Virus record (IMG/VR): IMGVR_UViG_3300042314_000177
Span: 1-64,000 of that record
Length of the DNA: 64,000 nucleotides
Source: a virus
Reading direction: 5' to 3' (one strand)
Each line of letters opens with the position of its first letter. The first letter of the stretch is position 1. Positions 1-64,000 of this stretch are shown here, one piece after another. Under the pieces are notes generated by a model. That model had not been told where the DNA came from and ran no database searches. It worked only from the letters and a program-made list of their open reading frames with translations. A program made the position numbers and the translations under genes.

Positions 1-1021
1 TTGCGTTTGCCGTGTAATTGATAAACTCAAAAAACACGCGCTCAAAACTGCAACGATACGCAGCATAACTTCCTGGGACATCTACACCGACATCAGCTTT
101 GTTGTTGCCATTTAATCGAATGTTGCTCAGTTTGCAGTTACTGTGCCCTTCAGAAACGCCCGCAAACGACAGCATTGTCCCGCCGTTAGTGTCCCAAATC
201 AAATTGCATTGTGGCAAATCTGTAAAAGTGCTGGCGTTTTCGCCGTACATCGTTTGTCCCGATGCGCTGTAACGCAAAGTGCTGGTGATAATGTAATCAC
301 CCAATGGTACAAAAACATCGTGTCCTGTATCTAATGCGTCCTGAATAGCCGCCGTATCGTCAGCCACTCCATCGCCAACAGCACCAAAGTCCTTTACCGA
401 AACATATTGCTCCAGCTTTGTCTGAACGGTCTGTGCGGTGGCTCCAGCAAAGGTTGCGGTGTATGAGATAGCCGTTGCGTTGCCAGAGTTAATCACGCCA
501 GTTTCGTTCGTCATCACTTCAATGCTAGAATTTAGCGGTGGAGCAATCGAGAACGTAATGACATTGCCTAAAAGGTTATAGCTATCCTTTTCCTGATAGA
601 CGCCGTTGATGAAAACGTTTGTTGCCAGAATGGTAGATGGCGCAGCCGAAAGCGTGAAGTCAACTTCAACGCCATCACCAACAAAGTCGTTCTTGACAAC
701 GGACGCAGATACAGCCGCAGGATCGAAGCCATAGCCTACAGGACTGTAGAGAACGAACTCCTCGCGCTTGTTGCGGATTGTGATTGAAAACTCGCCGCCA
801 GTGTAAAGCAGTGCTGGCGTGCCGTTACGATAGGCATAGCCATTGCTTGTACGGATTGGCTGCGTAGCCGGAATGGTTAGGTTGGCATCCCAAAATACCT
901 GAATCGGATTCTGTTCAGGGTCTTGGTTGATTGCACCGATATACAGGTAGCCGTCATCCAGCGGCGTGCCGTCTAGATCGGTGAATATTGGGTAAGGGCC
1001 AGTAACTTGAGTAAGTGCCAT
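1..1021 (-). CDS. Tailspike protein, N-terminal part (unit A), cut by window edge
   Basis: This is the first 340 residues of a tailspike; the gene runs off the left edge. The N-terminal part resembles the P22 tailspike head-binding domain (ITDLDGTPLDDGYLYIG-type start). It is followed by a pectate-lyase-type beta-helix opening (VKDFGAVGDGVADDT). Such trimers bind surface polysaccharide and often cleave it. It is nearly identical to the start of the complete tailspike at 32972-34990, with exact stretches of over 100 bp. It is the most downstream late gene of unit A visible here. Confidence 0.85.
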   Translation of the reverse strand, partial: MALTQVTGPYPIFTDLDGTPLDDGYLYIGAINQDPEQNPIQVFWDANLTIPATQPIRTSNGYAYRNGTPALLYTGGEFSITIRNKREEFVLYSPVGYGFDPAAVSASVVKNDFVGDGVEVDFTLSAAPSTILATNVFINGVYQEKDSYNLLGNVITFSIAPPLNSSIEVMTNETGVINSGNATAISYTATFAGATAQTVQTKLEQYVSVKDFGAVGDGVADDTAAIQDALDTGHDVFVPLGDYIITSTLRYSASGQTMYGENASTFTDLPQCNLIWDTNGGTMLSFAGVSEGHSNCKLSNIRLNGNNKADVGVDVPGSYAAYRCSFERVFFEFINYTANA

Positions 1022-1079
1022 TAGAACTTAATCCCTTGCGTCTTTGAGCTTATAGCTGAAATTATTGTGCTGCGAAAGG

Positions 1080-9643: not shown

Positions 9644-9766
9644 TTACTTCTTTTTCTTCTTGGCTTTGGTCATTGTCATTGCCTTGCCAGCTTTAGCGGC
9701 GGCTTTCTTAGCCATCGCCATACCTTTTGCATCGTAGCTGAACTTTTTTCCACCGACCATTGGCAT
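9644..9766 (-). CDS. Lys/Ala-rich peptide (40 aa)
   Basis: The frame encodes MPMVGGKKFSYDAKGM followed by Lys/Ala repeats, ending KAKKKKK. An AGGAG ribosome binding site precedes the ATG. The equivalent at 45151-45273 has the same length and almost the same sequence. The extreme basicity suggests nucleic-acid binding or packaging with DNA. Family unknown. Confidence 0.6.
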   Translation of the reverse strand: MPMVGGKKFSYDAKGMAMAKKAAAKAGKAMTMTKAKKKKK

Positions 9767-9779
9767 TTCAATTCTCCTA

Positions 9780-10967
9780 TTAGAAAGTTACGTAAAGATT
9801 AAACGCTTCAAGGCGCATCAGGTTATTCGCAGTCGCTGGCTTTGCAGTGATTGTAAATGTCTGATCCTGTGTAGTGTCAACGCTCAAGAACACGTTGGCA
9901 CCAGTCGATAGGCCATGACCTATAGAAGTTGTTGAGTTGCTGACAACTTGTGAGCCACCACGATTGTATAGTAGCTTCTGAACAGACGCGCTGGTGTTGT
10001 TTGCCGCAGCAGCAGCCAAGAGAACGCCGCCGCCATATGTCATGCCCAAGGTTTTAACTGTAGCGTTATTGGTCAACGTGAACAGAGCGTCAATCTCCAT
10101 GCCGCCACCAACGCCCATTGACCAGCCAGGGACTGTGACGGATGCTAGAGTAATTTCGGTGTTAGCTACAGCAACAACTGCAACGCCGTACCAAACAAGA
10201 GCAGTTTGTGTGCCAGACTGCGTACCGCTGGTGGTGACTGCTGCGCCTCCTGCTGATGTGGACACGGTGAAGGTGTTGGCTGAAAGCACTTCCTTCACAT
10301 AGTATGTGGTGTTGATAGCCAATCCGGTAGGCAATGCACCAGTAGTGGTGAAACGGATAGTGTCATTTACTGATCGGCCATGTGCTGCCCAAGTCACTAC
10401 GCCAGGTGCAGCAATGCTAATCGTTACAGTTGACGAAACGTAAGGTAGGTCGATTGTTACCTCCTCAGTATCTGTATCAGCGTCTACAACTTCATAAAAG
10501 CCTGTGGTCGCCGTCCCACCTGTCCAAGTGATATACAGGCTCGCGCCTTGCGAAACTGCATTGGTGAGGCCATGAACGCCAGCACTTACCAATTTAACAT
10601 CACCCGCGTTATCCGCATAGGTGAGCGTAACAAAGGTAGCGGCTGGCTCAACTAAAGCAACAGCCTCAAGGCTACCGATTGTCAATAGCGGGAAGTCACG
10701 CAAAGAAGGTTGAGCGCCTACGTCATATTGCGCTGTTGACTCAAGTCCGCTGGTAATACGCACAGTGCGATCAACAGGATATGGGCCAAACATCTGTGCG
10801 CTGTTAGAAAGCGAAGCGATCTGGGTGTAGGATTCATAGCTTGCTGGGCCAATTGGCTCAAGCGATACAGTTGTGGCATCGTTACCTACATTCCCAATGC
10901 TGATATATTGACCAGCAGGAACAAGGACGTCTGTAATAGTCTGAGTAAGACCTGGTTGAATAATCAT
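9780..10967 (-). CDS. Beta-rich structural protein (395 aa)
   Basis: The product is 395 residues, rich in Thr, Ser, Val and Gly, with an N-terminal MIIQPGLTQTITDVLVPAGQ segment. The middle contains a repeated fibre-like stretch (GLAINTTYYVKEVLSANTF). This suggests a head fibre or decoration protein with Ig-like or beta-sandwich domains. It lies in the extra cassette between gp4 and gp10. The unit B copy (45287-46474) has the same length and long exact DNA stretches. Confidence 0.55.
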   Translation of the reverse strand: MIIQPGLTQTITDVLVPAGQYISIGNVGNDATTVSLEPIGPASYESYTQIASLSNSAQMFGPYPVDRTVRITSGLESTAQYDVGAQPSLRDFPLLTIGSLEAVALVEPAATFVTLTYADNAGDVKLVSAGVHGLTNAVSQGASLYITWTGGTATTGFYEVVDADTDTEEVTIDLPYVSSTVTISIAAPGVVTWAAHGRSVNDTIRFTTTGALPTGLAINTTYYVKEVLSANTFTVSTSAGGAAVTTSGTQSGTQTALVWYGVAVVAVANTEITLASVTVPGWSMGVGGGMEIDALFTLTNNATVKTLGMTYGGGVLLAAAAANNTSASVQKLLYNRGGSQVVSNSTTSIGHGLSTGANVFLSVDTTQDQTFTITAKPATANNLMRLEAFNLYVTF

Positions 10968-12261: not shown

Positions 12262-13536
12262 TTATACTTGGTTGAAAAGCAGGATGCCTGCCATTTCTGG
12301 GTTCGTCATTACCACACCATACAGTGTGTCCAGCGTGTAAAGCGTCTGGAAGGTCAGTGGATCGAACTTCTTGGTCATGACCAATTCGATGCCCTGATCT
12401 GTAGCAGCACGAAGAACGTCAACGCCAGCGCCATCTGGAACAGCATAACGACCTGGGAGGAGTTCAATCGAATCCTTGCGCCAGAACGGGTTGATGTTCG
12501 ATGCAGTGGTGTTGAGGAAGTTCAACGATGCAGTTGCCGAAGTCGATGCAACCTCAACGTTCTGATACTGAAGTTCAGCATCAGTTGGTGACGAGTTAGC
12601 GCCGATGATTGGCGGACTGATAACCATCGAAGTGCCATCAACAATTTCGATAACGCGGAAGGTCTTCAACTGACCTGTGCTGCGCTTCGTGATGTGATGA
12701 ACAGCTTCGATACCAGTGATCGTGAACGCATCGCCAGCAAGAATGCCAGTTGTCGAGGAGACAGTGACAGTCTGATAGCGGTTGTCTACGTTCAGAACGC
12801 CACCAACGTTGGTAACAGTTGCCTTTGGAACGTAACGAACTTGTGCGCCGTTGGTTGCAATCGTGCGTGTTGCCGAGTTTGCATTGCAACGGTTAGCGTA
12901 ATCAAGCTTGTAGGTTTCAAAGCCAGCTACTGGGCCAACATACGAACGCTCATACGCGTTTGCAGACTTGTTGCCAGTGAACGAACGAGTTGCGATCGCC
13001 AAGTTACCAGCCATGCCGTTGTAATCGCGGCTCGACAAAGCGAGGTAACGATCTTCAGCCATAACGCCCTGTTCGTTCATGATGCTGTCGCAAAGCGCGA
13101 TGTCATCATAATCGCCAGCAGCAGTTGCTACGTCAACAACAAGCGTACCCTGAGCAGCAGCCAAATCCATAACGGAAAGGTTGATGTCCGAAGCAAGTTT
13201 CTGCTTTGCAGCAGCGCCCAAACGATCTTCTTGCAATGCGTCACGAAGTTCCAAAGCATTCATTTCCCATGCCGAGCAAGGGCTGAAGCCCAAGGTCGAA
13301 GGAACAGAAAGCTGGGTCATCGTCGAAACACTAGAAGCAATCGAGCTGCCGATGGTACGTGTGAACGACTGAGCGATGTATGGTTGCGGACGCCACATGG
13401 TGTCACGAGCGCGTTCCATAGTTACGCCGTTGGTGTTGTAGATGTTGATGTTCTTTGACAGAATCAAAGCATCGTTGAAGCCTTCAAGAATGTTCTCAAA
13501 GGCAACAATTTCTTCTTTTGAAAAAGCGTTAGCCAT
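12262..13536 (-). CDS. Major capsid protein, P22 coat (gp5)-like
   Basis: The product is 424 residues (P22 gp5 has 430). It starts MANAFSKEEIVAFENILEGF and contains FSPCSAWEMNALELRDALQ and TLYTLDTLYGVVMTNPEMAG, consistent with the P22 coat HK97-fold family. It lies between scaffold and gp4. The copy at 48023-49297 matches over most of its length, with variation concentrated at about residues 220-330. It is followed by a strong hairpin. Confidence 0.9.
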   Translation of the reverse strand: MANAFSKEEIVAFENILEGFNDALILSKNINIYNTNGVTMERARDTMWRPQPYIAQSFTRTIGSSIASSVSTMTQLSVPSTLGFSPCSAWEMNALELRDALQEDRLGAAAKQKLASDINLSVMDLAAAQGTLVVDVATAAGDYDDIALCDSIMNEQGVMAEDRYLALSSRDYNGMAGNLAIATRSFTGNKSANAYERSYVGPVAGFETYKLDYANRCNANSATRTIATNGAQVRYVPKATVTNVGGVLNVDNRYQTVTVSSTTGILAGDAFTITGIEAVHHITKRSTGQLKTFRVIEIVDGTSMVISPPIIGANSSPTDAELQYQNVEVASTSATASLNFLNTTASNINPFWRKDSIELLPGRYAVPDGAGVDVLRAATDQGIELVMTKKFDPLTFQTLYTLDTLYGVVMTNPEMAGILLFNQV

Positions 13537-13553: not shown

Positions 13554-14411
13554 TTAGGTTTTCTTATTACGACGCTTATACTCCATGACCTTTGACAAGT
13601 CTCCGGTCTTCAGAGCTTCAGCGCGTAAGCGTTCAAGTTGTGAATCAATGGAACCAGACACACGCCCACCGCTTGTGGTGATTGTACGTTCTGGCGAGGT
13701 TGATGCCCTACGGTTTGTTACTTTCAACTGAGTCTCCAGTTTTGCTACCGCAAAGGCAAACTTTACGGGGTCGGTGATTGCTGCAAGTTCCTTAGCTCGC
13801 TTAGTGCTTTTGCCAATTGCGTAGATAAGCAAAGCAGGGTTGTCAGAGCCTTGTAGAACTATCCCTTGTTGCGTGACGTTGAACGTATCTAAAGCCGTTG
13901 CTTCAGCTTCGTCATAGTCACGCACCTTTAACGAAGATTTTGCCTTCGCATAGGAATCAAGCTTGTTCTGCCACGCCTTAGCTTCAGCGTCTTGCTGGGC
14001 TTTAGCATTGGCTTCGGCTGCATCGTATTCGCGTTTCTGCTCATACCAGTCAGCAAGCTTTTGTTCGTACTCGTCGGAATCATAATCGCAATTCTCAAGC
14101 GTTGGCTTTGCTACTAGTGCAACTGGTTTGGTCTCAGTTGCTGTGGTACTTAGCTTTGCTTCTAGTTCGCGTATCTTCCGCTCTTTTTCCCGATTTGATT
14201 TACGCAATTCACGCACCCAAGCAGGCGCACGAACTTCTTCATCTTGAGGTGGCGATTCCTCTCCGATAGATATTACGACTTCATCTTCGTCATCTTCTTC
14301 CTCATCATCATCCAGGTCGATGGAATTGGTCTCATCTTCTGCTTGGTCATTGATGTCTGTGTCGATGTCGATTGTTTCGATGTTGTCGTTATCCAGTTCT
14401 GCCGTTTTCAT
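13554..14411 (-). CDS. Scaffolding protein
   Basis: The product is 285 residues. The first 60 are very acidic (runs of Asp and Glu). A long Lys/Glu-rich coiled coil follows (REKERKIRELEAKL) and a basic C-terminus ends RRNKKT. This layout and the position between portal and coat match P22-type scaffolds, whose basic C-terminus binds coat. Homologue at 49328-50179. Confidence 0.8.
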   Translation of the reverse strand: MKTAELDNDNIETIDIDTDINDQAEDETNSIDLDDDEEEDDEDEVVISIGEESPPQDEEVRAPAWVRELRKSNREKERKIRELEAKLSTTATETKPVALVAKPTLENCDYDSDEYEQKLADWYEQKREYDAAEANAKAQQDAEAKAWQNKLDSYAKAKSSLKVRDYDEAEATALDTFNVTQQGIVLQGSDNPALLIYAIGKSTKRAKELAAITDPVKFAFAVAKLETQLKVTNRRASTSPERTITTSGGRVSGSIDSQLERLRAEALKTGDLSKVMEYKRRNKKT

Positions 14412-14428: not shown

Positions 14429-16501
14429 TCACCCAAATTGTGTGGAGGGTGGAACCACATTCGTACTGGGTCGCAATGCTTCCCCAATCTTTTCAGCAGT
14501 CTCAATAGCCGACTTGCGCTGGTCAATGTCGATGTTTGAGATAGTCTCTGCTGTCTTAGCACGGGTTTCTTCCGATCGTGCCAAGGTATATTCAGTGTTA
14601 GCTTGTGCTTGGATAGCCTGAGCCTGTGACTTAGCGGCTTCGGCAAGCAAGTAAGCGGATTGCGGATCAGGCTGCACGTTTGCTTGTGCTTCCATCATCT
14701 GCTGTTGTTCTTCTTCCGTTGGCTGCAATACGCCCATCTGGACTAGCTGCTTGCGGAAGTATTCCTTGATGTCGCCAATGCCTTCGCCTTCCATGTTCAT
14801 GATAGCCATAGCTTGCAGAACCTGTTGGGTTGTCGGGTCGGTGGTAACTGCCATCATGCCTGTAAGCGCACGGACTGTAGCGTCACGGCGACTGCTCGAC
14901 GATGGGCCAACGTCTACTGCAACGTCAAACAAGGCATCGCCCAAGTTGTTTTCGTAAATCAGTTCGCCTGTTTCTTCGTCGATCTGTGGCTTCATCAGTT
15001 CAATCGAACCAACTTCTTCCATAGCGCCAATAGTCTTCATCTTGCGCTTTTCTTCAACGTAGATGTCTTTCGACATTGACAGCCATATCTCACCACAGCG
15101 CCGCACAGCCTTCGCCATGTTGCTCATGTAGATGAACGTCTGCATATCCAAGCGGGTCTGGATAAGCTCAACAGCCTTGCCGCTGATGCCGCTGACCATC
15201 TTGTCAGCTTGCTGGTTGTTACCCAGTATCTCAGCCATGTCTTGCTCAGTGATTTGAAGCAGTGCTGCCATCGCTGGCGGAATCTGTGCAGACTTGGTGT
15301 AAGCAACTGGGCCAGACGCTTGAGTCTCGCCATTTGGCCCTGTGATTGGATTGACTAGCAGGTAAGGATAGTTGCGTAGGTTATCCTCTGCCCACATGAC
15401 CTGATGGCCTGAGACTTGCTCTGGAACCAAGATAGGCTTTTCAATGGATGAAAGCGCACTGATCTCACCCAGCTTCGATAGCTGCATATTCTTCAGGCGC
15501 TGCGGGTCTTTGGCAAGGCGCACATGGCCCATGCAACGCTCAACGTTATCAACGAACCAACGCTTGCCATAGACAGGAACGATCGGAATATTCTTGCCAG
15601 CGATGTAGCCTTGGTCTTCAAGGATGCCGCCACCGCTCATGATATACTTACGGACGCGCTTCCGTTTAATACGCTTCTGGCGTACTTCTACCGTTCCAAC
15701 AGCAGCCAGAGTTTCCTCTAGCGTTTCGTCTGCGTCAAAGTCTGCTTGCGTGTAGCGTTCTTCTTCGCCTTGGATTGTCAGGAAGATTCGGACAGTCTCG
15801 CGGGTTTCCTCAACGCGGTAATACTCAGCCACGAACACAATGTCAGGCGTGTCCCAATCAAACTCATACTGGTGAATGATTTTGGGCCAGGTCGTTGGGT
15901 CATCATTCCATTCAGCTTTGTAAGCCTCATAGGTCATGGAATACAGAACGAAGCAATACTTAGCGTCGGCCTTGTCCTGGCGTTTTGCATCGATGTCAAA
16001 GAACACAGAGCTATCAGCGTCATAGATTGGTTCTATGCGGATGCGCTGGCGTTCGTCCTCATCGTTCTCATCATCTTCATAGGTAGTGCGTAAGCGCCAT
16101 GCGCCAAAGCCACCGCCAACTGCTTCCTCAAAAGCGTTGTCGTATGCTTCTTCTGCGCCGCTGTCCCGTTCGTCTGCACGATAGAGACCGTTGCACGTTT
16201 CTGTTAACTTGTCGTTTGCCTCGCCATCTTTGCTAACAAAGTCTACGGCAATGCGGTTATTACGATATTCGTTGATGATACGGATGACGCTAAGGTGAAT
16301 CTTGTTTACCTCAAAGCGTGGCTTGTTTTCGTATTGGTCACCGAGTGGGCCTTCCCACTGTGCGCCAGCGATGGAATAGAAACGCCTGTCTTGAAGGCAT
16401 TGTAGGCGCTCATCACGCACCGACGATTGAACGCGGTCGAACTCTACCATCGCCTGTTGATGGATGTTCGCAAACCTTTGTTCTCTATTCAGTCGAGCCA
16501 T
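14429..16501 (-). CDS. Portal protein, P22 gp1-like
   Basis: The product is 690 residues. It starts MARLNREQRFANIHQQAM and contains FEVNKIHLSVIRIINEYRNN, typical of P22-type portals (P22 gp1 has 725). The C-terminal 100 residues are Gln/Ala/Glu-rich and helical, corresponding to the barrel. It forms the dodecameric DNA channel and terminase docking site. It immediately follows the large terminase gene. About 95 percent similar to 50197-52269, with the extreme C-terminus variable. Confidence 0.92.
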   Translation of the reverse strand: MARLNREQRFANIHQQAMVEFDRVQSSVRDERLQCLQDRRFYSIAGAQWEGPLGDQYENKPRFEVNKIHLSVIRIINEYRNNRIAVDFVSKDGEANDKLTETCNGLYRADERDSGAEEAYDNAFEEAVGGGFGAWRLRTTYEDDENDEDERQRIRIEPIYDADSSVFFDIDAKRQDKADAKYCFVLYSMTYEAYKAEWNDDPTTWPKIIHQYEFDWDTPDIVFVAEYYRVEETRETVRIFLTIQGEEERYTQADFDADETLEETLAAVGTVEVRQKRIKRKRVRKYIMSGGGILEDQGYIAGKNIPIVPVYGKRWFVDNVERCMGHVRLAKDPQRLKNMQLSKLGEISALSSIEKPILVPEQVSGHQVMWAEDNLRNYPYLLVNPITGPNGETQASGPVAYTKSAQIPPAMAALLQITEQDMAEILGNNQQADKMVSGISGKAVELIQTRLDMQTFIYMSNMAKAVRRCGEIWLSMSKDIYVEEKRKMKTIGAMEEVGSIELMKPQIDEETGELIYENNLGDALFDVAVDVGPSSSSRRDATVRALTGMMAVTTDPTTQQVLQAMAIMNMEGEGIGDIKEYFRKQLVQMGVLQPTEEEQQQMMEAQANVQPDPQSAYLLAEAAKSQAQAIQAQANTEYTLARSEETRAKTAETISNIDIDQRKSAIETAEKIGEALRPSTNVVPPSTQFG

Positions 16502-17725
16502 TTACCACCTACTCACAGTTGCTAAAGGTTGCACATCGAAAGTCTTTGGAACGACTGCTCGACGGATGGCCTCACACGCATAACGTAGTGCGTCTATAAG
16601 GTGATTATCACGATCCGCAAGTATTGGCAAGATTTGTCCTGTCAAGGGGTCAGTTTTATAACTGTAGCACGTTAATTCGTCGATCGTGTGCTGGCAGCGA
16701 GGGTGGACAACGATGTCATATGACTTCAACCATTCGACGCCTTCCTCTACAGACTTAGGCCCTTTGACTGCCGCCATAATCTTTGGGAAGCCATGTTTAC
16801 GCATATGGCTGATGGTTTCAGGTCTGGCGCTATCAGCAACGATGGGCCACTTCTCAGAATCCGGCACAGTGAAGAACAGGTCTGGCGTGTCCATAATCTC
16901 ACAGCCAACGCGATAGGCTTCGTGATCGACATAGATTGTTCTGCCAATAACATGACAGCGGATTAGAACAGTCGGGTCAGATGCAAAGCCCCAGTCAGCG
17001 CCGAAGCGGTGCGTTGCGTCCTCTGGTGTATCGAAGTCCTCAATCTTCCAGTTGCGGAATACACGGGCTTCGCTGTTCGATGCGTAGCTTCCCAACCAAA
17101 CGTGCTTGTATTTGTCAGGGTCACGCTCTCGATCGTATTCCATCTCCGCTTTAAGCACATCAGGGAACCAAGGATTGTCTCGATAGTTTACCTGTGCAAC
17201 GATAGCGTCAGGTGGCGGATTCTCACCACGCAGCAGCATATCAATCGGGTCGGTGCTGTTCAGCGGGTTCCATGTGAACCATAGTTCGCTGTCTGGCTTA
17301 CGGATTGTTGGACGCAATAGGTCAAGTGAACGTTGCGATAGCGTCTGCGATTCCTCAACCCAAGCGCAGTCGTAACCTTCCAGCGACTTAATGGAGTCAG
17401 CGGTGTGGTTCTGCATCCCCTGGAAGATGATTAGGCCATCGCCATGCCGTGATTTAATCTGGGTTTCTTGAATCTCAAAGTAATCCTGAACACCAAGCTG
17501 TTCGATCTTTAGCTCCAGCAAACGCTTAACGGATTGCGCTAATGACTTCTGAATCTCGCGGACGCATACTGTTCTGCGCCGCTGATCCATAACGTGCGCT
17601 TCGATAACCATTTCCGCAAAGGCATGGCTCTTGCCTGAACCACGCCCACCATGTGCGCCCTTGTAGCGACTAGGCTTTAGGAATGGCTTAAACCATCGCG
17701 GGGTTTTAATCTTCAGCGTTGTCAT
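16502..17725 (-). CDS. terL: Large terminase subunit (PBSX/Terminase_3 type)
   Basis: The product is 407 residues. Walker A is GGRGSGKS (26-33) and Walker B is CAWVEE (120-125). Nuclease acidic residues fit GADWGF (D244), VADSARPE (D298) and DRDNHLIDALRY near 375-387. It cuts concatemers and pumps DNA into the prohead. It overlaps the small subunit gene by 20 bp. Almost identical to 52270-53493. Confidence 0.95.
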   Translation of the reverse strand: MTTLKIKTPRWFKPFLKPSRYKGAHGGRGSGKSHAFAEMVIEAHVMDQRRRTVCVREIQKSLAQSVKRLLELKIEQLGVQDYFEIQETQIKSRHGDGLIIFQGMQNHTADSIKSLEGYDCAWVEESQTLSQRSLDLLRPTIRKPDSELWFTWNPLNSTDPIDMLLRGENPPPDAIVAQVNYRDNPWFPDVLKAEMEYDRERDPDKYKHVWLGSYASNSEARVFRNWKIEDFDTPEDATHRFGADWGFASDPTVLIRCHVIGRTIYVDHEAYRVGCEIMDTPDLFFTVPDSEKWPIVADSARPETISHMRKHGFPKIMAAVKGPKSVEEGVEWLKSYDIVVHPRCQHTIDELTCYSYKTDPLTGQILPILADRDNHLIDALRYACEAIRRAVVPKTFDVQPLATVSRW

Positions 17726-18116
17726 CGATCACTTCACGCTGGATGCGCTGGATCATGCTGCCAGTGATACTAAGCTTAGTCGGCTCGTTAAACCCATGCA
17801 TTACGTTTAGCTCTTTAACGGCTGCTGTCATGCCTGTTGATGTCTTTGCATCCTGGGCAATACGATACGCTTGTATCAACCCTTTGACAGACATTTCGCG
17901 TGTCCATAATTGCTTTTCAACAACCTGTGATTTCAATTCATCAACCCTTATAGCAACCTTAGGGTTTTTCATCAGGTTGGATGCCTGCACATAAATGCTG
18001 GCATCAGATCCAGTCTTAGCGTCATAAGCAGTTCGATAAGCATCTGCTTGCCCCATGCCATCAGCAATGCATTGAGCGAACAATTCTTGTTTTGCAGTCA
18101 ACTTATTTTGAGTCAT
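17706..18116 (-). CDS. terS: Small terminase subunit
   Basis: The product is about 136 residues. The N-terminal helix-turn-helix region (TAKQELFAQCIADGMGQADA...) fits the Terminase_2 family that recognises the packaging site. I chose ATG 18116, 8 bases after AGGTGAG, over a GTG at 18128. The C-terminal 20 residues (QREVIDDNAED) are conserved with unit B while the rest diverges, which suggests different pac specificity with the same TerL contact. Confidence 0.85.
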   Translation of the reverse strand: MTQNKLTAKQELFAQCIADGMGQADAYRTAYDAKTGSDASIYVQASNLMKNPKVAIRVDELKSQVVEKQLWTREMSVKGLIQAYRIAQDAKTSTGMTAAVKELNVMHGFNEPTKLSITGSMIQRIQREVIDDNAED

Positions 18117-19452: not shown

Positions 19453-19522
19453 CTCAGCTTCCAATAAGGTCTGGTGGAAACCTTCTAGAGCATCTTAGTC
19501 ACTGTGTCCATAATGTATGAAG

Positions 19523-27118: not shown

Positions 27119-27119
27119 G

Positions 27120-32958: not shown

Positions 32959-32971
32959 TTGTCTACTCCAA

Positions 32972-34990: not shown

Positions 34991-35048
34991 TAGAACTTAA
35001 TCCCTTGCGTCTTTGAGCTTATAGCCGAAATTATGTTGCAGCGAAAGG

Positions 35049-40984: not shown

Positions 40985-41112
40985 ATCACAATTTGTTTGC
41001 CTTTGGCAATAAAGTATCTTAATTATCATCACGCAGCTTACCTGACGGGGGACAGGCGACTCATCATCGCTTGCTGTAATTTTCCTGATGCAGCACTTTG
41101 ATGAGGTGTTTT

Positions 41113-45150: not shown

Positions 45151-45273
45151 TTACTTCTTTTTCTTCTTGGCTTTGGTCATAGTCATTGACTTGCCAGCTT
45201 TAGCTGCAGCTTTCTTAGCCATCGCCATACCTTTTGCATCGTAGCTGAACTTTTTTCCACCGACCATTGGCAT
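45151..45273 (-). CDS. Lys/Ala-rich peptide (40 aa), unit B
   Basis: Same length and layout as 9644-9766, ending in a run of lysines. The DNA from here into the 395-residue gene includes over 150 bp identical to unit A. Confidence 0.6.
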   Translation of the reverse strand: MPMVGGKKFSYDAKGMAMAKKAAAKAGKSMTMTKAKKKKK

Positions 45274-45286
45274 TTCAATTCTCCTA

Positions 45287-46474
45287 TTAGAAAGTTACGT
45301 AAAGATTAAACGCTTCAAGGCGCATCAGGTTATTCGCAGTCGCTGGCTTTGCAGTGATTGTAAATGTCTGATCCTGTGTAGCATCGACGCTCAAGAACAC
45401 GTTGGCACCAGTCGATAGGCCATGACCTATAGAAGTTGTTGAGTTGCTGACAACTTGTGAGCCACCACGATTGTATAGTAGCTTCTGAACAGACGCACTA
45501 GCGTTGTTTGCCGCAGCAGCAGCCAAGAGAACGCCGCCGCCATATGTCATGCCCAAGGTTTTAACTGTAGCGTTATTGGTCAACGTAAACAGAGCGTCAA
45601 TCTCCATACCGCCACCAACGCCCATCGACCAGCCAGGGACTGTGACGGATGCTAAAGTAATTTCGGTGTTAGCTACAGCAACTACGGCAACGCCGTACCA
45701 AACGAGAGCAGTTTGTGTGCCAGACTGCGTACCGCTGGTGGTGACTGCTGCGCCGCCTGCTGATGTGGACACGGTGAAGGTGTTAGCTGAAAGCACTTGC
45801 TTCACATAGTATGTGGTGTTGATAGCCAATCCGGTCGGCAATGCACCAGTAGTGGTAAAGCGAATCGTGTCGTTTACCGATAAGCCATGTCCAGCCCAAG
45901 TTATAACGCCTGGTGCAGCGATGCTAATCGTGACGGTCGAATCAATGTAAGGTAGGTCAATGGTTACCTCCTTAGTATCTGTATCAGCGTCCAGCACTTC
46001 ATAAAAGCCAGTGGATGCCGTTCCACCCGTCCAAGTGATATAAAGGTCAGCGCCTTGCGATACTGCGTTTGTAAGGCCATGAACGCCAGCACTTACCAGC
46101 TTTACGTCACCCGCATCATCGTCATAGGTAAGCGTTACAAAGGCAGCTGCTGGCTCAACAAGGCTAACAGGCTCAAGGCTTCCGATTGTCAAAGGCGGGA
46201 AGTCACGCAGCGTTGGTTGATCGCCTACGTCATATTGCGCTGTTGACTCAATCCCACTGACAATACGCACAGTGCGATCAACAGGATACGGGCCAAACAT
46301 CTCTGCGCTGTTAGAAAGCGACGCAATCTGGGTGTAGGAGTCATAGCTTACTGGGCCGATTGCCTCAAGCGAAACGGTTGTGGCATCATTGCCTACATTC
46401 CCAACGCTGATATACTGACCAGCAGGAACAATTACATCTGTAATGGTCTGAGTTAGACCTGGTTGAATAATCAT
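45287..46474 (-). CDS. Beta-rich structural protein (395 aa), unit B
   Basis: The product is 395 residues and colinear with 9780-10967. The C-terminal 200 residues are almost identical and the N-terminal half carries most changes. Possible head fibre or decoration protein. Confidence 0.55.
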   Translation of the reverse strand: MIIQPGLTQTITDVIVPAGQYISVGNVGNDATTVSLEAIGPVSYDSYTQIASLSNSAEMFGPYPVDRTVRIVSGIESTAQYDVGDQPTLRDFPPLTIGSLEPVSLVEPAAAFVTLTYDDDAGDVKLVSAGVHGLTNAVSQGADLYITWTGGTASTGFYEVLDADTDTKEVTIDLPYIDSTVTISIAAPGVITWAGHGLSVNDTIRFTTTGALPTGLAINTTYYVKQVLSANTFTVSTSAGGAAVTTSGTQSGTQTALVWYGVAVVAVANTEITLASVTVPGWSMGVGGGMEIDALFTLTNNATVKTLGMTYGGGVLLAAAAANNASASVQKLLYNRGGSQVVSNSTTSIGHGLSTGANVFLSVDATQDQTFTITAKPATANNLMRLEAFNLYVTF

Positions 46475-48022: not shown

Positions 48023-49297
48023 TTAAGTTTGGTTGAAAAGCAGGATACCTGCCATTTCTGGGTTCGTCATAACCACACCATACAGTGTGTCCAGCGTGTA
48101 AAGCGTCTGGAAGGTCAGTGGATCGAAACGCTTGGTCATGACCAATTCGATACCCTGATCCGTTGATGCACGAAGAACGTCAACGCCAGCGCCATCTGGA
48201 ACAGCATAGCGGCCTGGGAGGAGTTCAATCGAATCCTTGCGCCAGAACGGGTTGATGCTTGAAGCAGCAATGTTCAAGAAGTTGAGCGGAGCAGACGATG
48301 CGGCTGCAACCAATTCAACGTTCTTGTACTGCAATTCAGCATCAGTTGCTGGAGCAGTCGCAGCGATGATCGGTGGCGAGATAACCATCGATGTGCCGTT
48401 GACAACTTCAATGACGCGAAACGTCTTGAGTTCGCCAGTCGAACGCTTCGTGATGTGGTGAACAGCTTCAATGCCATCAATCGTGAACGCATCGCCAGCA
48501 AGAACGCCAGTTGTCGAGGAGACAGTGACAGTCTGATAGCGGTTGTCAACGTTCAGGATACCCGAAACACTGTTGGTTGTCGCCTGTGGAACATACTGAG
48601 CTTGAGCGCCAGTAGTGTTGATGGTGACAGTTGCAGTGTTAGCAGCACAACGGTTAGCATAGTCAAGCTTGTAGGTTGAGAAGCTTGCGACTTCACCAAC
48701 GAACGAACGCTCATATGCGTTAGCCGACTTCGTGCCAGTGAACGAGCGAGTCGCTACTGCCAAGTTACCAGCCATGCCGTTATAATCGCGGCTCGACAAA
48801 GCAAGGTAGCGATCACCAGCCATAACACCCTGTTCGTTCATGATGCTGTCGCAAAGTGCAACATCGTCATAATCGCCAGCAGCGGTAGCTACGTCAACAA
48901 CAAGCGTACCCTGAGCAGCAGCCAAATCCATAACGGAAAGGTTGATGTCCGAAGCAAGCTTCTGCTTTGCAGCATCGCCAAGACGGTTTTCTTGCAGTGC
49001 ATCACGAAGTTCCAAAGCATTCATTTCCCACGCAGAGCAAGGGCTGAAGCCCAAGGTCGAAGGAACAGAAAGCTGGGTCATCGTCTGAACACTAGAAGCA
49101 ATCGTCGTGCCAACAGTACGAGTGAACGACTGAGCGATGTATGGTTGCGGACGCCACATGGTGTCACGAGCGCGTTCCATAGTTACGCCGTTGGTGTTGT
49201 AGATGTTGACGTTCTTTGAAAGGATCAAAGCGTCATGGAAGCCTTCGAGGATATTCTCAAAGGCAACAATTTCTTCTTTCGAAAAAGCGTTAGCCAT
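48023..49297 (-). CDS. Major capsid protein, P22 coat-like (unit B)
   Basis: The product is 424 residues, the same length as 12262-13536. Differences cluster around residues 215-340, a likely surface or insertion domain, while N- and C-terminal regions are nearly identical. Confidence 0.9.
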   Translation of the reverse strand: MANAFSKEEIVAFENILEGFHDALILSKNVNIYNTNGVTMERARDTMWRPQPYIAQSFTRTVGTTIASSVQTMTQLSVPSTLGFSPCSAWEMNALELRDALQENRLGDAAKQKLASDINLSVMDLAAAQGTLVVDVATAAGDYDDVALCDSIMNEQGVMAGDRYLALSSRDYNGMAGNLAVATRSFTGTKSANAYERSFVGEVASFSTYKLDYANRCAANTATVTINTTGAQAQYVPQATTNSVSGILNVDNRYQTVTVSSTTGVLAGDAFTIDGIEAVHHITKRSTGELKTFRVIEVVNGTSMVISPPIIAATAPATDAELQYKNVELVAAASSAPLNFLNIAASSINPFWRKDSIELLPGRYAVPDGAGVDVLRASTDQGIELVMTKRFDPLTFQTLYTLDTLYGVVMTNPEMAGILLFNQT

Positions 49298-49327: not shown

Positions 49328-50179
49328 TTATTTCTTGCTTCGCTTGTAAGCCATGACCTTTGATAAGTCTCCGGTCTTCAGAGCTTCAGCGCGTAAGCGT
49401 TCAAGTTGTGAATCAATGGAACCAGACACACGCCCACCGTTTGAGGTGATTGTACGTTCTGGCGCGGTTGTCGCCCTACGGTTAGTTACTTTCAACTGAG
49501 TCTCCAGTTTTGCTACCGCAAAGGCAAACTTCACGGGGTCGGTGATTGCTGCAAGTTCCTTAGCTCGCTTAGTGCTTTTGCCAATTGCGTAAATAAGCAA
49601 AGCAGGATTGTCAGAGCCTTGTAGAACTATTCCTTGCTGCGTGACGTTAAACGTATCTAAAGCCGTAGCTTCAGCTTCGTCATAGTCCCGCACCTTTAAC
49701 GAAGATTTTGCCTTCGCATAGGAATCAAGCTTGTCCTGCCATGCTTTAGACTCAGCATCTCGCTGCGCTTCTGCCTTGGCTTCCACTGAATCGTATTCGC
49801 GTTTATGCTCATACCAATCAGCAAGCTTTTGTTCATACTCGTCGGAGTCATAGTCGCAACTTTCAAGCGTTGGCTTAGATACTAATGCAACTGGTTTGGT
49901 CTCAGTTGCTGCCGTATTAAGCTTTGCTTCAAGTTCGCGTATCTTCCGCTCTTTTTCCCGATTCGATTTACGCAATTCACGCACCCAAGCTGGCGCACGA
50001 ACTTCTTCATCTTGAGGTGGCGATTCCTCTCCGATAGATATTACGACTTCATCTTCGTCATCTTCTTCGTCATCATCAGCCTGGTCGATGGAATTGGTCT
50101 CATCTTCCGCTTGGTCATTGATGTCTGTGTCGATGTCTATTGTGTCGATGTTGTCGTTATCCAGTTCTGCCGTTTTCAT
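49328..50179 (-). CDS. Scaffolding protein (unit B)
   Basis: The product is 283 residues with the acidic N-terminus, coiled coil and basic C-terminus of 13554-14411. Ends KVMAYKRSKK. Confidence 0.8.
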   Translation of the reverse strand: MKTAELDNDNIDTIDIDTDINDQAEDETNSIDQADDDEEDDEDEVVISIGEESPPQDEEVRAPAWVRELRKSNREKERKIRELEAKLNTAATETKPVALVSKPTLESCDYDSDEYEQKLADWYEHKREYDSVEAKAEAQRDAESKAWQDKLDSYAKAKSSLKVRDYDEAEATALDTFNVTQQGIVLQGSDNPALLIYAIGKSTKRAKELAAITDPVKFAFAVAKLETQLKVTNRRATTAPERTITSNGGRVSGSIDSQLERLRAEALKTGDLSKVMAYKRSKK

Positions 50180-50196: not shown

Positions 50197-52269
50197 TCAC
50201 CCTAATATAGTGGAGGGTGGAACCACATTCGTTTGCGGCCTAATTGCGGCCCCAATCTTTTCAGCAGTCTCAATAGCGGACTTTCGTTCGTCTATATCAA
50301 CGCTTGATAATGTTTGAATAGTCTTAGCCTTCGTTTCTTCAGAACGCGCCAAGGTGTATTCAGTGTTAGCTTGTGCTTGGATAGCTTGAGCCTGTGACTT
50401 AGCGGCTTCGGCCAGCAAGTAAGCAGATTGTGGGTCTTGCTGCACGTTAGCCTGTGCTTCCATCATCTGCTGCTGTTCTTCTTCCGTTGGCTTCAGAACG
50501 CCCATCTGGACTAGCTGCTTACGGAAGTATTCCTTGATGTCTCCAATGCCTTCGCCTTCCATGTTCATGATAGCCATAGCTTGCAGAACCTGTTGGGTTG
50601 TTGGATCGGTGGTAACTTGCATCATGCCTGTAAGCGCACGGACTGTAGCGTCACGGCGGCTGCTCGACGATGGGCCAACGTCTACGGCAACATCAAACAA
50701 GGCATCGCCCAGGTTGTTCTCGTAAATCAGTTCGCCTGTTTCTTCGTCGATTTGTGGCTTCATCAGTTCAATCGAACCAACTTCTTCCATAGCGCCAACA
50801 GTTTTCATCTTGCGTTTTTCTTCAACGTAGATGTCTTTCGACATTGACAGCCATATCTCACCACAGCGGCGCACAGCCTTAGCCATGTTGCTCATGTAGA
50901 TGAACGTCTGCATATCTAGGCGGGTCTGGATTAGCTCCACAGCCTTACCACTGATACCGCTGACCATCTTGTCGGCTTGCTGGGTGCTTCCCAGTATCTC
51001 AGCCATGTCCTGCTCAGTCAGAGCAAGTAATGCTGCCATTGCTGGCGGAATCTGTGCGGACTTAGTGTAAGCAACTGGGCCAGCAGCAGTAGTCTCGCCG
51101 TTTGGCCCTGTAATTGGATTGATTAACAGATAAGGATAATTGCGTAGGTTATCCTCTGCCCACATTACCTGATGGCCTGAGACTTGCTCTGGCATCAAGA
51201 TGGGCTTTTCAATCGACGAAAGCGCACTGATCTCACCCAGCTTAGATAGCTGCATATTCTTCAGTCGCTGTGGGTCTTTGGCTAAACGAACATGGCCCAT
51301 GCAACGCTCTACGTTATCAACGAACCAACGCTTGCCATAGACAGGAACAATAGGAATGTTCTTGCCAGCGATGTAACCCATATCGTCAAGGATGCCGCCA
51401 CCGCTCATGATATACTTGCGGACGCGCTTACGCTTAGTACGCTTCTGGCGTACTTCTACAGTGCCAACAGCAGCTAGTGTTTCCTCTAGCGTTTCGTCAG
51501 CGTCGAAGTCCGCTTGCATGTAGCGTTCTTCTTCGCCTTGGATCGTCAGGAAGATGCGGACTGTCTCACGCACTTCTTCAACGCGATAATACTCAGCGAC
51601 AAACACAACGTCAGGCGTATCCCAATCAAACTCGTACTGATGGATTACCTTGGGCCATGTTGCTGGGTCATCATTCCATTCAGCCTTGTAAGCCTCATAG
51701 GTCATTGAATACAGCACGAAGCAATACTTAGCGTCTGCCTTGTCCTGGCGCTTTGCATCAAGGTCAAAGAACACAGAGCTATCAGCGTCATAGATTGGTT
51801 CTATGCGGATGCGCTGGCGTTCGTCCTCGTCGTTTTCTTCATCTTCATACGCAGTGCGTAAACGCCAAGCGCCATAGCCACCGCCTACAGCTTCCTCAAA
51901 AGCGTTGTCGTATGCTTCTTCTGCGCCGCTGTCCCGTTCGTCTGCACGATAGAGACCATTGCACGTTTCGGTTAGCTTGTCGTTTGCTTCGCCATCTTTG
52001 CTAACAAAGTCTACAGCGATGCGGTTGTTGCGATATTCGTTGATGATACGAATGACGCTAAGGTGAATCTTGTTCACCTCAAAGCGTGGTTTGTTTTCGT
52101 ATTGGTCACCTAGTGGGCCTTCCCACTGCGCTCCAGCTATGGAGTAGAAGCGTCGATCTTGTAAGCACTGCAAGCGTTCATCACGCACAGATGTTTGAAC
52201 ACGGTCGAACTCCGTCATCGCCTGTTGATGGATGTTCTGGAACCGTTGTTCTTTATTCAATCGAGCCAT
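50197..52269 (-). CDS. Portal protein, P22 gp1-like (unit B)
   Basis: The product is 690 residues, colinear with 14429-16501. Only the last 35 residues (barrel tip) and scattered positions differ. Confidence 0.92.
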   Translation of the reverse strand: MARLNKEQRFQNIHQQAMTEFDRVQTSVRDERLQCLQDRRFYSIAGAQWEGPLGDQYENKPRFEVNKIHLSVIRIINEYRNNRIAVDFVSKDGEANDKLTETCNGLYRADERDSGAEEAYDNAFEEAVGGGYGAWRLRTAYEDEENDEDERQRIRIEPIYDADSSVFFDLDAKRQDKADAKYCFVLYSMTYEAYKAEWNDDPATWPKVIHQYEFDWDTPDVVFVAEYYRVEEVRETVRIFLTIQGEEERYMQADFDADETLEETLAAVGTVEVRQKRTKRKRVRKYIMSGGGILDDMGYIAGKNIPIVPVYGKRWFVDNVERCMGHVRLAKDPQRLKNMQLSKLGEISALSSIEKPILMPEQVSGHQVMWAEDNLRNYPYLLINPITGPNGETTAAGPVAYTKSAQIPPAMAALLALTEQDMAEILGSTQQADKMVSGISGKAVELIQTRLDMQTFIYMSNMAKAVRRCGEIWLSMSKDIYVEEKRKMKTVGAMEEVGSIELMKPQIDEETGELIYENNLGDALFDVAVDVGPSSSSRRDATVRALTGMMQVTTDPTTQQVLQAMAIMNMEGEGIGDIKEYFRKQLVQMGVLKPTEEEQQQMMEAQANVQQDPQSAYLLAEAAKSQAQAIQAQANTEYTLARSEETKAKTIQTLSSVDIDERKSAIETAEKIGAAIRPQTNVVPPSTILG

Positions 52270-53493
52270 TTACCACCTACTCACAGTTGCCAAAGGTTGC
52301 ACATCGAAAGTCTTTGCAGGGACTGCTCGACGTATGGCCTCGCACGCATAACGTAGCGCGTCTATAAGGTGATTATCACGATCTGCAAGGATTGGCAAGA
52401 TTTGTCCTGTCAAGGGGTCAGTTTTATAACTATAGCACGTTAATTCGTCAATCGTGTGTTGGCAGCGAGGGTGGACAATGATGTCATATGACTTCAACCA
52501 TTCAACGCCTTCCTCTACAGACTTAGGCCCTTTGACTGCCGCCATAATCTTTGGGAAGCCGTGCTTTCTCATGTGGCTAATCGTTTCAGGTCTGGCGCTG
52601 TCAGCAACGATGGGCCACTTTTCAGAGTCAGGCACAGTGAAGAATAGGTCTGGCGTGTCCATGATCTCACAGCCTACACGATACGCTTCATGATCGACAT
52701 AGATTGTGCGGCCAACAACATGGCAGCGGATTAGAACAGTCGGGTCAGATGCAAAGCCCCAGTCAGCACCAAAGCGATGCGTTGCGTCCTCTGGTGTTTC
52801 GAAGTCCTCAACCTTCCAGTTACGGAATACACGCGCTTCGCTGTTAGATGAATAGCTGCCCAGCCAAACGTGCTTGTATTTGTCAGGGTCTCTATCCCTA
52901 TCGTATTCCATTTCTGATTTAAGCACATCAGGGAACCAAGGGTTGTCTCGATAGTTTACCTGTGCAACCACAGCGTCAGGCGGTGGGCTTGGGCCACGCA
53001 GGAGCATATCAATCGGGTCGCTGCTGTTAAGCGGGTTCCATGTGAACCATAGCTCACTGTCTGGCTTACGGATTGTCGGACGCAATAGATCGAGCGAGCG
53101 TTGCGATAGTGTCTGCGATTCTTCCACCCAGGCGCAGTCATAACCTTCTAGCGACTTGATGGAGTCAGCCGTGTGGTTCTGCATCCCCTGGAAGATGATT
53201 AGGCCATCGCCATGCCGTGACTTGATCTGGCTTTCCTGAATCTCAAAGTAATCCTGAACGCCAAGCTGCTCAATCTTTAGCTCCAGCAAACGCTTGACCG
53301 ACTGCGATAGCGACTTCTGTATTTCACGAACGCAAACTGTTCTGCGCCGCTGATCCATAACGTGCGCTTCTATTACCATTTCCGCAAAGGCATGGCTCTT
53401 TCCCGATCCACGACCACCATGTGCGCCTTTATAGCGACTAGGCTTTAGGAATGGCTTGAACCAGCGCGGGGTTTTAATCTTCAGCGTTGTCAT
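52270..53493 (-). CDS. terL: Large terminase subunit (unit B)
   Basis: The product is 407 residues from ATG 53493 (TTG 53496 is unlikely). All ATPase and nuclease motifs of the unit A protein are present (GGRGSGKS, CAWVEE, GADWGF, VADSARPE, DRDNHLIDAL). Overlaps terS by 20 bp. Confidence 0.95.
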   Translation of the reverse strand: MTTLKIKTPRWFKPFLKPSRYKGAHGGRGSGKSHAFAEMVIEAHVMDQRRRTVCVREIQKSLSQSVKRLLELKIEQLGVQDYFEIQESQIKSRHGDGLIIFQGMQNHTADSIKSLEGYDCAWVEESQTLSQRSLDLLRPTIRKPDSELWFTWNPLNSSDPIDMLLRGPSPPPDAVVAQVNYRDNPWFPDVLKSEMEYDRDRDPDKYKHVWLGSYSSNSEARVFRNWKVEDFETPEDATHRFGADWGFASDPTVLIRCHVVGRTIYVDHEAYRVGCEIMDTPDLFFTVPDSEKWPIVADSARPETISHMRKHGFPKIMAAVKGPKSVEEGVEWLKSYDIIVHPRCQHTIDELTCYSYKTDPLTGQILPILADRDNHLIDALRYACEAIRRAVPAKTFDVQPLATVSRW

Positions 53494-53878
53494 CAATCAC
53501 TTCGCGCTGGATGTGTGTAACGAGACTGCCAGTGACACTAAGCTTAGATGGAGCGTCAAGCCCAATCATTGCGTTGATGGCCTTTACAGCGTTTACCTTG
53601 TCGCTTGGCTTTGCGTCTGCGTCTAATCCTTTGGCTATCGTAGACAACACATCAAGGCTGTCTGCCAGCGTCCATGTGACACGTTCAGCAACTGCTGCTC
53701 GTAATTCAGCAACCCTTGTTGAAACATTGCTATCTGCCATTAGCCTACAAGCATTTGCTTGGCTGGTCTCTGGTTTAGTTGTCGGCTTAACATTAAAGGC
53801 TGTTCTGTAAGCCTCTGCTTGACTTTTGCCCGATGCAACTTCGTGAGCGAATCGCTCTTGTTTAGGTGTTAACGCCAT
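53474..53878 (-). CDS. terS: Small terminase subunit (unit B)
   Basis: The product is 134 residues. The N-terminus (TPKQERFAHEVASGKSQAEA) is a Terminase_2 helix-turn-helix, quite different from unit A. The C-terminus (QREVIDDNAED) is the same. Here DUF3310 lies directly upstream, with no methyltransferase between them. Confidence 0.85.
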   Translation of the reverse strand: MALTPKQERFAHEVASGKSQAEAYRTAFNVKPTTKPETSQANACRLMADSNVSTRVAELRAAVAERVTWTLADSLDVLSTIAKGLDADAKPSDKVNAVKAINAMIGLDAPSKLSVTGSLVTHIQREVIDDNAED

Positions 53879-55374: not shown

Positions 55375-56124
55375 CTACTCTGCACTGGTTGGATTGTCTC
55401 TAATTAATTTCAACAGTTTGCCTCTGCTTTTTAGAAAGCATAGGTCGCAATTACCTTCATAGCTTTTTAAACCCAAATCAAAAGGCTGTTGCTTCCAAAA
55501 ATCTAAAACATCCTGCTCCCTTACCATTCTGCCATTTGCTCCAGAGCCATTTTTTGCCATTGGCATTACAGATTGCCAACGTTCCTTTGCCTGTTCATTG
55601 CGCTCAATTTGTTTGAAAACGCGGTGCATTTCATCACCACGAAGGCCAATAACATTTAACCAAGTTTCATGACCTTGGGCAATCATAAACCACTTTAGTG
55701 TTTCAACTTTAAGGGTTGAAGTGCAATATCGCATTGTGGTTGTTGGCAGGAAACGCTTTCGCTCTATTAGTTTTGCAAACGGCTCCCCATTACGGCTGGC
55801 GCTGTTATATCCTACAAAACTGAAGCGGCGTTGTGCGTCAGATATTGGGTCAAGCTTTAGCTCGCCAGCTTTCCGTCTTTTAGGAGATTCCGCCCACTCT
55901 ACCCAATGAATATATATGCCCCAACGAGTTCCACACTCATGAACAAAACGAAGCGTTTCTTCCCGCTCCTTTCCCGTGTTTGCAAAAACAACATAAACGT
56001 CATTAGGCAATATTCCGCCGTGTGCATCAATTATTTGTTTCAGCATATAGCCAGACGTTCTGCCGCCGCTGAACGATATAAGTGCGGGGCCAGCAATGAA
56101 ATATGGATTAGATTGCTCAGTCAT
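55375..56124 (-). CDS. PAPS reductase / PP-loop family protein, ended by amber codon
   Basis: The product is 249 residues. SFSGGRTSGYML (PP-loop, near 17-28) and YVVFANTGKE are typical of the adenylyl-transfer fold; CDLCFLKSRGKLLKL is a conserved Cys motif. Phage members may act in sulfur-based DNA or RNA modification; DndC belongs to the same superfamily. The frame continues after the stop to 55183. Overlaps the DnaA-like gene by 8 bp. Unit B only. Confidence 0.75.
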   Translation of the reverse strand: MTEQSNPYFIAGPALISFSGGRTSGYMLKQIIDAHGGILPNDVYVVFANTGKEREETLRFVHECGTRWGIYIHWVEWAESPKRRKAGELKLDPISDAQRRFSFVGYNSASRNGEPFAKLIERKRFLPTTTMRYCTSTLKVETLKWFMIAQGHETWLNVIGLRGDEMHRVFKQIERNEQAKERWQSVMPMAKNGSGANGRMVREQDVLDFWKQQPFDLGLKSYEGNCDLCFLKSRGKLLKLIRDNPTSAE

Positions 56125-58837: not shown

Positions 58838-59407
58838 ATGCCGATTCATAAAAAACTAAACGAGGCGCGATTAGCGTTTCATGCTTTACCGCTAAAGAAG
58901 TCTGGGCAGAATACTTTTGCTGGATATAAATACTTTGAGCTTTCCGATTTTCTTGTCCCAGCCCTGCGAATCTTTAATGATGTTGGGCTTTGCGCGGTTA
59001 TTAGCTTTTCCGAAAGCACAGCGTCAATGCATATCGTTGATGTAGAAGATGGTTCACAGGTTATCATTCACAGCCCAATGGGTTCAGCCAATCTTAAAGG
59101 TTGCCATGAGATTCAGAACATTGGCGCATGTGAGACTTACTCAACCCGCTACCTCTGGACAGCAGCCCTTTGCATTGTCGAGCATGACGCACTGGATGCT
59201 ACCACGGGAAAGAATAAAGACACGCCAAGCATTCGCTACATTAGCAAAGCGCAGTTTGATTCATTGCAATCTTTGGTAGAAAAGACCAAAACAGATGTAG
59301 ATGTGCTCTGCAAGCATTACAAAATTGACGCTCTTGAATCAGTCCCTGAAAGCCAATTCAATGTGGTTCATACTGCATTGGTAAAGAAGTTGGGGAAAGC
59401 AGCATGA
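58838..59407 (+). CDS. erf: ERF-family annealing protein (unit B)
   Basis: The product is 189 residues. Residues 1-135 are nearly identical to 24006-24566; the last 50 differ, including the C-terminal helix. AAGGAGA precedes the ATG. Overlaps yqaJ by 4 bp. Confidence 0.88.
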   Translation: MPIHKKLNEARLAFHALPLKKSGQNTFAGYKYFELSDFLVPALRIFNDVGLCAVISFSESTASMHIVDVEDGSQVIIHSPMGSANLKGCHEIQNIGACETYSTRYLWTAALCIVEHDALDATTGKNKDTPSIRYISKAQFDSLQSLVEKTKTDVDVLCKHYKIDALESVPESQFNVVHTALVKKLGKAA

Positions 59408-60036
59408 CAGACGCAGCTATTATCCAACGCAGCCCAGAATGGTTTGCAGCACGTTGTGGAAGCCTTGGCGCTTCCCAACTTGCAGACGCACTAGCTAAGA
59501 CCAAATCTGGCTGGGGAGCATCTCGCGCTAACTTACAGGCGAAGCTTGTAATCGAACGGCTTACGGGTCGGCAGGAAGAAAGCTTTAGCAGCGCCGCTAT
59601 GATCTGGGGAGTGGAGAAAGAAGAAGAAGCCAGAACTGCCTACAGCTTCGTTACAGGCAATGAAGTGCTTGAGGTAGGGCTGTATAAGCATCCCACCATT
59701 ATAGGCTCCCACGCCAGCCCAGATGGGCTTGTAGGGGATGATGGGTGCATAGAGATTAAATGCCCAAACAGTAGCACACACATAGAAGTGCTCAAAAACA
59801 ATCAAATTGCACACAAATATATACTCCAAATGCAATGGCAGATGGCTTGCGCTGATAGGCAGTGGTGCGATTTTGTGAGCTTTGATCCACGGATGCCAGA
59901 CAATCTATCGCTCTACATCCAGCGGATTGAACGTGACAATGATATGCTTGCAATTCTAGAATCAGAGGTTGCTGCATTCCTTGTGGAAGTTGACGTAGAC
60001 GTAAAAGCGTTATTAGAGTTGGGAGAATCAAAATGA
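59404..60036 (+). CDS. YqaJ-family exonuclease (unit B)
   Basis: The product is 210 residues with the PDG...EIK core (GSHASPDGLVGDDGCIEIK) intact. Colinear with 24563-25198. Confidence 0.9.
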   Translation: MTDAAIIQRSPEWFAARCGSLGASQLADALAKTKSGWGASRANLQAKLVIERLTGRQEESFSSAAMIWGVEKEEEARTAYSFVTGNEVLEVGLYKHPTIIGSHASPDGLVGDDGCIEIKCPNSSTHIEVLKNNQIAHKYILQMQWQMACADRQWCDFVSFDPRMPDNLSLYIQRIERDNDMLAILESEVAAFLVEVDVDVKALLELGESK

Positions 60037-60576: not shown

Positions 60577-60953
60577 CGCAAACTGTTTGGCTTCGTGGTG
60601 AGCATCAAAGAAGGTTGGCGCACCAGTTAATTGACAAAGCGCCAATCAATGCGGTGGTCAAAATATCGCCTGAACAAAGGTCACTGCATCAGAACAATAA
60701 AATGTGGGCCATGATCTCAGACGTTAGCAGACAGAAGCCAGAGGGCCGCACTCATGTTCCAGAGGTATGGAAAGCAATCTTTATGGCTGCTTGTGGGCAT
60801 GAGGTGCAGTTTGAAAACGGCCTGGACAATAAGCCATTCCCAATCGGCTTTAGGTCATCGAACCTAAGCAAAACACAAATGGCTGATTTAATTGAATATA
60901 TGTATTTTTATGGAAGCAAACACGATATAAAATGGAGTGAAGAATATGAGTGA
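60573..60953 (+). CDS. ninB: NinB / Orf-like recombination mediator (unit B)
   Basis: The product is 126 residues. [20 protein letters not shown] is the NinB signature. Its stop overlaps the start of the GapR gene. Confidence 0.85.
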
Positions 60954-61179
60954 TATGAATGATGATATGCTGCGTTTGCTAATTGAGCGCATTGAACGCC
61001 AGGAGGAAGAAAAGAAAACTATCTCCGACAGCATTAGAGAGATTTACAGCGAGGCAAAGGGACACGGATACGATGTTAAAATCCTTCGCGCTGTGATCCG
61101 CCTTCGCAAGATGGAAAAGAACGAACGAGCAGAATACGAAGTCCTGCTTGAAACATACATGAACGCATTGGGAGGTTAA
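60946..61179 (+). CDS. gapR: GapR-family (DUF2312) nucleoid protein
   Basis: The product is 77 residues from ATG 60946. [40 protein letters not shown] and [10 protein letters not shown] match GapR. GapR is an alphaproteobacterial protein that binds overtwisted DNA ahead of replication forks and stimulates type II topoisomerases. It is inserted exactly after the ssb ribosome binding site (GGAG, 8-base spacing) relative to unit A. Likely host-derived. Confidence 0.85.
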
Positions 61180-63325: not shown

Positions 63326-63425
63326 TTTATAAACCGTCAATTATCAATCATGTCGATTTTCTAACAAGAATATTTCGCAAACAGGCGCACAGCTTGGGTT
63401 TACGGGATATGCACTTCAAACAACA

Positions 63426-64000
63426 TTAAGCTACCTCGAGCATCTCAGTGGTAATCATCACCCGCCCTACGGCTCCGTATTTTTTATGGTACGTTATTGC
63501 CCAGGCTGCTCGATCAGCAATCCAGCCTCCACGCGCCGCATAAGCATCACGCGCTGCCAAGGTTGGATGCTGAACGACTGTTACCCCATTATACTCTTTC
63601 TCGTCCCTGTGGTGTCTGTGACCGCAGTGTATCTCTCTGCGGGTGGTTCTGCCCCATTGCTGGGGAAACTGTGCCGCAAACAAGAGCGGTAGGGATTCAT
63701 TCTTGACCTTATGCCCATGATGAACGCCTAGCATGGTGTTGCCCCATTCAAACACATAGAATGGTAGAACGCTATCGCTGACAGTGACGCGAGGTTCTTC
63801 CTCGTAATGCACAGCAAACAAATCAGATAGCCAGCCGCTGCTTTCTTCGTCGTGATTGCCTTCTGCTATAATCAGATACACTTCCTGATGGCGCTGCAAA
63901 GATATAGCTACCAGTGATCGAATGATGCGGATTGCTGCCCTGCGAATCTTTGGGAATCGGCTATCAGCATCCAGAACGTGTTTGCTTGCTGGCGTTACAG
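63426..64000 (-). CDS. Metallophosphoesterase, C-terminal part (cut by window edge)
   Basis: The frame is open to the right edge. KHVLDADSRFPKIR, IAEGNHDEESSG and CGHRHHRDEKEY match 27515-28693 at about 90 percent. The upstream part lies outside the window. It shows that another unit begins here. Confidence 0.8.
   Translation of the reverse strand, partial: VTPASKHVLDADSRFPKIRRAAIRIIRSLVAISLQRHQEVYLIIAEGNHDEESSGWLSDLFAVHYEEEPRVTVSDSVLPFYVFEWGNTMLGVHHGHKVKNESLPLLFAAQFPQQWGRTTRREIHCGHRHHRDEKEYNGVTVVQHPTLAARDAYAARGGWIADRAAWAITYHKKYGAVGRVMITTEMLEVA

Follow-up and report, generated by a model that had tools for sequence, protein, structure and literature searches.

The 64,000-nt stretch analysed here (the window) is part of the 68,853-bp IMG/VR record IMGVR_UViG_3300042314_000177, which is very probably a chimeric metagenome contig of two co-occurring P22-like phages, A and B, joined within a 647-bp block of tailspike sequence. 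Its double genome is almost certainly an ordinary assembly artefact and no new kind of virus.

Two diverged phage genomes in one record

Self-alignment shows that the record is made up of two diverged P22-like phage genomes, collinear and on the same strand, both of which look gene-complete:

1-33969: unit A, a P22-like phage genome (self-alignment and contigs carrying A alone)
33970-68853 (33970-64000 in the window): unit B, a second, diverged P22-like phage (self-alignment and a contig carrying B alone)

The circle of unit A measures 33,969 bp, if 33969 joins back to 1, and that of unit B 35,789 bp. The record thus holds both units complete, minus the middle of B's own tailspike and a second pass through the shared sequence, and it has no exact terminal repeat as a whole. 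Identity between A and B is mostly 77-89% across aligned genes, and their intergenomic similarity is ~52-54% when aligned identity is summed roughly by hand over both unit lengths; A and B are therefore different species. An earlier note on this DNA had described a tailspike N-terminus at 1-1021 that recurs at 33970-34990, followed by a repeat of the whole gene order. Both observations were borne out: 1-1094 is found again at 33970-35063 with 95.2% identity (95% for the N-terminal part of the tailspike), and the collinear, same-strand order continues with A-to-B offsets of 33,969 to 35,911 bp inside the window and 35,931 bp past it, the offset shifting along the units because genes were gained and lost. 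The same note was mistaken in letting the order begin again at 63425, as 63431-63998 matches 27520-28087 and still belongs to unit B, which runs on to 68853.

The virion and recombination genes below were located in unit A and, as collinear counterparts, in unit B:

16502-17725 (-) in A, 52270-53496 in B: terminase large subunit
14429-16501 (-) in A, 50197-52269 in B: P22-like portal
13554-14411 (-) in A, 49328-50179 in B: scaffolding protein
12262-13536 (-) in A, 48023-49297 in B: P22-like coat protein
24006-25198 (+) in A, 58838-60036 in B: Erf-like annealing protein and RecE-like exonuclease

Unit A also encodes head closure, ejection, NinB-like and SSB proteins, and unit B has collinear counterparts of unit A's genes. 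Matches to portal, scaffold, coat, terminase and head closure families (phrog_156, 648, 283, 3717 and 578), to ejection proteins (phrog_770 and phrog_598) and to tailspikes place both with the P22-like podophages. The best annotated relatives of the portal are MW202867.1 (69.6%), Pseudomonas phage PfAn1 (47.6%) and the APSE phages (42%). Lederbergvirus, the genus of P22, comprises temperate phages with a tyrosine integrase; a search for phage integrase (PF00589) found none in the record, whereas the same search matched 14 of 14 control genomes. Therefore, we regard the units as P22-like in their virion genes only and keep them out of P22's genus.

Gene content differs between the units in several places. 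The gene for a GapR-like DNA-binding protein in unit B (60937-61179, +; E 9e-31) has no aligned partner in A, and the units differ in their DNA methyltransferase genes, both in agreement with the earlier note. In unit A, a gene at 18103-19464 (-) that adjoins the small terminase joins a ParB-like nuclease domain to a DNA methyltransferase, and is absent from B at the corresponding place. Two genes of unit B code for HNH endonucleases (HNH_3), one with NUMOD4 and the other with a weak AP2 match, at 41098-41595 (+) of the window and at L004:3177-3692 (+), L004 being the locus of the part of the record beyond the window; they are likely homing endonucleases. Unit B also encodes a phosphoadenosine-phosphosulfate-reductase-like protein (55375-56124, -), with other genes in the matching part of A. 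A host search among bacterial genomes returned a single match, DYMC01000001.1, a 34,480-bp contig of a 'Lentisphaera' MAG; it carries the gene for a P22-like portal (69%) and is probably a phage sequence listed among bacterial genomes.

Exact blocks and the position of the join

Shared 127-mers were counted between the circularised units. Between A and B, only four exact blocks reach 127 bp (647, 177, 173 and 162 bp); the longest straddles the closing point of the A circle, and, as the B circle was closed through it for this count, its middle 401 bp in B are taken from this record. The features around the join are as follows:

33450-34096: block r2, 647 bp, the longest series of 127-mers common to A and B, covering about residues 299-513 of the tailspike
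32962-33138: block r1, 177 bp, exact
33139-33449: A-allele stretch between r1 and r2, with 12 differences from B's own copy
9702-9874 in A, 45209-45381 in B: exact block of 173 bp
32972-34990 (-): tailspike gene read across the A/B join, 672 aa, pectate-lyase-like with a C1q-like C-terminus (A's N-terminal part lies also at 1-1021)

B's own tailspike is seen in IMGVR_UViG_3300042430_000221. It matches the record exactly over 32962-33138 and has 12 differences from it over 33139-33449; base 33449 is still different, and from 33450 the match is exact again until the contig stops at 33568. Given these 12 differences, the path through 33139-33449 is still on A, and the switch to B falls within 33450-34096, that is, within sequence exactly common to both sources; they also rule out 32962-34096 (1,135 bp) as a single shared block. 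The full reach of the block at 33450-34096 becomes visible only by comparing other assemblies. The three exact stretches that the earlier note had proposed as switch points do exist, at 1-127 (127 bp), 9702-9874 (173 bp) and 27092-27196 (105 bp), but the last is too short to act as one at k=127, and the comparison with other assemblies puts the real switch of this join in the tailspike block instead.

The two ends of the record lie in the same blocks. Its first 127 bp are identical to 33970-34096, the last 127-mer of r2, with the first mismatch at 128, so that the contig starts exactly at a 127-mer branch; its last 103 bp (68751-68853) equal 32962-33064 and end 103 bp into the B copy of r1. 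The contig ends point to assembly at k=127 for this record, and a JGI-style metaSPAdes command uses k = 33,55,77,99,127 (PMC11584781). We infer the following walk through the assembly graph. The exact 647-bp block would be beyond phasing by short reads, and the circles of A and B would be joined in a figure of eight. Leaving the block along A, the assembler would circle A and re-enter the block; it would then exit along B, circle B and halt on meeting the shared sequence again. Such a path through two circles would account for the start, end, switch point and length of the record.

Units A and B in other assemblies and the competing readings

Both units are found apart in other IMG/VR assemblies at 99.99-100% identity. 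Unit B stands alone in IMGVR_UViG_3300042430_000221 (35,388 of 35,789 bp, 100%), and unit A in IMGVR_UViG_3300042431_000075 (A 9749-33081, 23,333 bp, 2 mismatches, 99.99%) and also in 3300044732_000027 (A 17043->1). Moreover, sample 3300042431 contains unit A (_000075) and a contig 99.9% identical to B (_000033) as separate records. No paper that mentions the sample identifiers was found. In 3300044732_000027 and 3300042296_000071, r2 is followed by A and not by B, exactly over 1,614 bp; both contigs stop at 33450, where r2 starts, and the other end of 3300042296_000071 is at 9828, exactly 127 bp into the 173-bp block. IMGVR_UViG_3300044640_000333 ends at 33088, exactly 127 bp into r1. A break at base 33970/1 occurs in three assemblies (the start of this record, 3300042430_000221 and 3300044640_000161). 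Altogether, 10 of the 12 ends of six contigs (G000, G001, G002, L099, L100 and G015) fall within shared blocks that make up ~3.4% of a unit, in a sample that is not unbiased, some of the contigs having been found through the tailspike. Against this reading, the end of this record (103 bp into its block) and two other ends (119 and 120 bp) miss the exact 127 bp.

Relatives with closed ends are, in every case, single units of 33.7-34.6 kb. Terminal overlaps of exactly 127 bp in 3300034050_000106 (34,756 bp) and of 123 bp in 3300032313_000299 (33,838 bp) close these contigs as single units of 34,629 and 33,715 bp, respectively, and MW202867.1 was deposited as a 34,522-bp circle.

The contig IMGVR_UViG_3300044640_000333 is 100% A over 6309 to ~9700 and essentially 100% B thereafter, with the change inside the 173-bp block; it arose either by natural recombination or through a second switch during assembly.

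The earlier note had left three readings side by side: a chimeric contig, a mixed concatemer after coinfection and a stable composite genome. The separate single-unit contigs, together with the coincidence of ends and switch with exact blocks and the 127-bp word, support the first, and nothing positive emerged for the other two. The strongest competitor is a transient AxB cointegrate or mixed replicative concatemer, made by phage recombinases in a coinfected cell through one crossover in the 647-bp block. One crossover within r2 would yield this very sequence, and genes for Erf-like annealing and RecE-like exonuclease proteins are present in A, with collinear counterparts in B; the A-to-B switch in the 173-bp block of another contig also fits, though it may equally be an assembly switch. 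Two exact-pattern scans found no r2-spanning contig with the same unit on both sides, only contigs stopping in or at r2, and because no contig spans the whole of r2 from A to A or from B to B, the graph by itself fits two circles and one cointegrate alike. However, a molecule of twice the normal length would have to dominate the assembly, of which there is no independent sign; the start and the switch of the record both sit on graph features that an artefact predicts; and single-unit contigs of A and of B exist. We therefore hold a cointegrate to be quite improbable, and just as improbable its fuller form, in which real AxB molecules, recombined by the phages in the shared tailspike block, would be abundant in the environment and supply the population with mosaic progeny.

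A composite phage that stably carries ~69.8 kb would fit with the gene-complete appearance of both units, but A and B occur separately elsewhere, the relatives with closed ends are all single units, and a head of the P22 type would not be expected to accommodate ~70 kb; we consider this reading barely credible. Tandem integration of two related prophages into a host chromosome has a negligible chance of being the source, even though tandem lysogens of related phages are known, and we reject this reading in the absence from the record of a PF00589 integrase and of host flanks: host genes lie at neither end, a phage structural gene lies at both, and the unit boundary falls inside a structural gene and not at an attachment site.

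Implications and comparison with known systems

If the record is a chimeric assembly, as we think very probable, the remaining biological interest is modest and centres on the tailspike block shared by two diverged phages. That 647 bp of the pectate-lyase-like region are identical, against 11-23% difference in most aligned genes, suggests a recent exchange of the receptor-binding module. More broadly, public virus catalogues can contain double-length records built from two different strains, and genome size, gene content and taxonomy drawn from this record would be wrong. Screens for repeated k-mers would be expected largely to miss such records, because the copies have diverged.

The CheckV paper (PMC8116208) reported terminal repeats of k-mer length and regarded the concatenated genomes of IMG/VR as probably produced by assembly. 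This record resembles those contigs in being about twice the expected length, in holding a genome twice and in having assembly as the presumed cause, but it differs from them in that they repeat the same genome and were flagged by k-mer frequency, whereas two different phages are joined here.

Among phages, P22 and the APSE phages share with the record the P22-type portal, scaffold, coat, head-closure, ejection and tailspike genes; the portal of the APSE phages is only ~42% identical, and P22 differs in its integrase, none having been found in this record. The closest counterparts are the contigs IMGVR_UViG_3300042430_000221 (B) and 3300042431_000075 (A), which represent the same strains and have the same kind of gene set and order, as does MW202867.1. 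In contrast to the double record, each of these three carries one unit only, in 23.3-35.4 kb.
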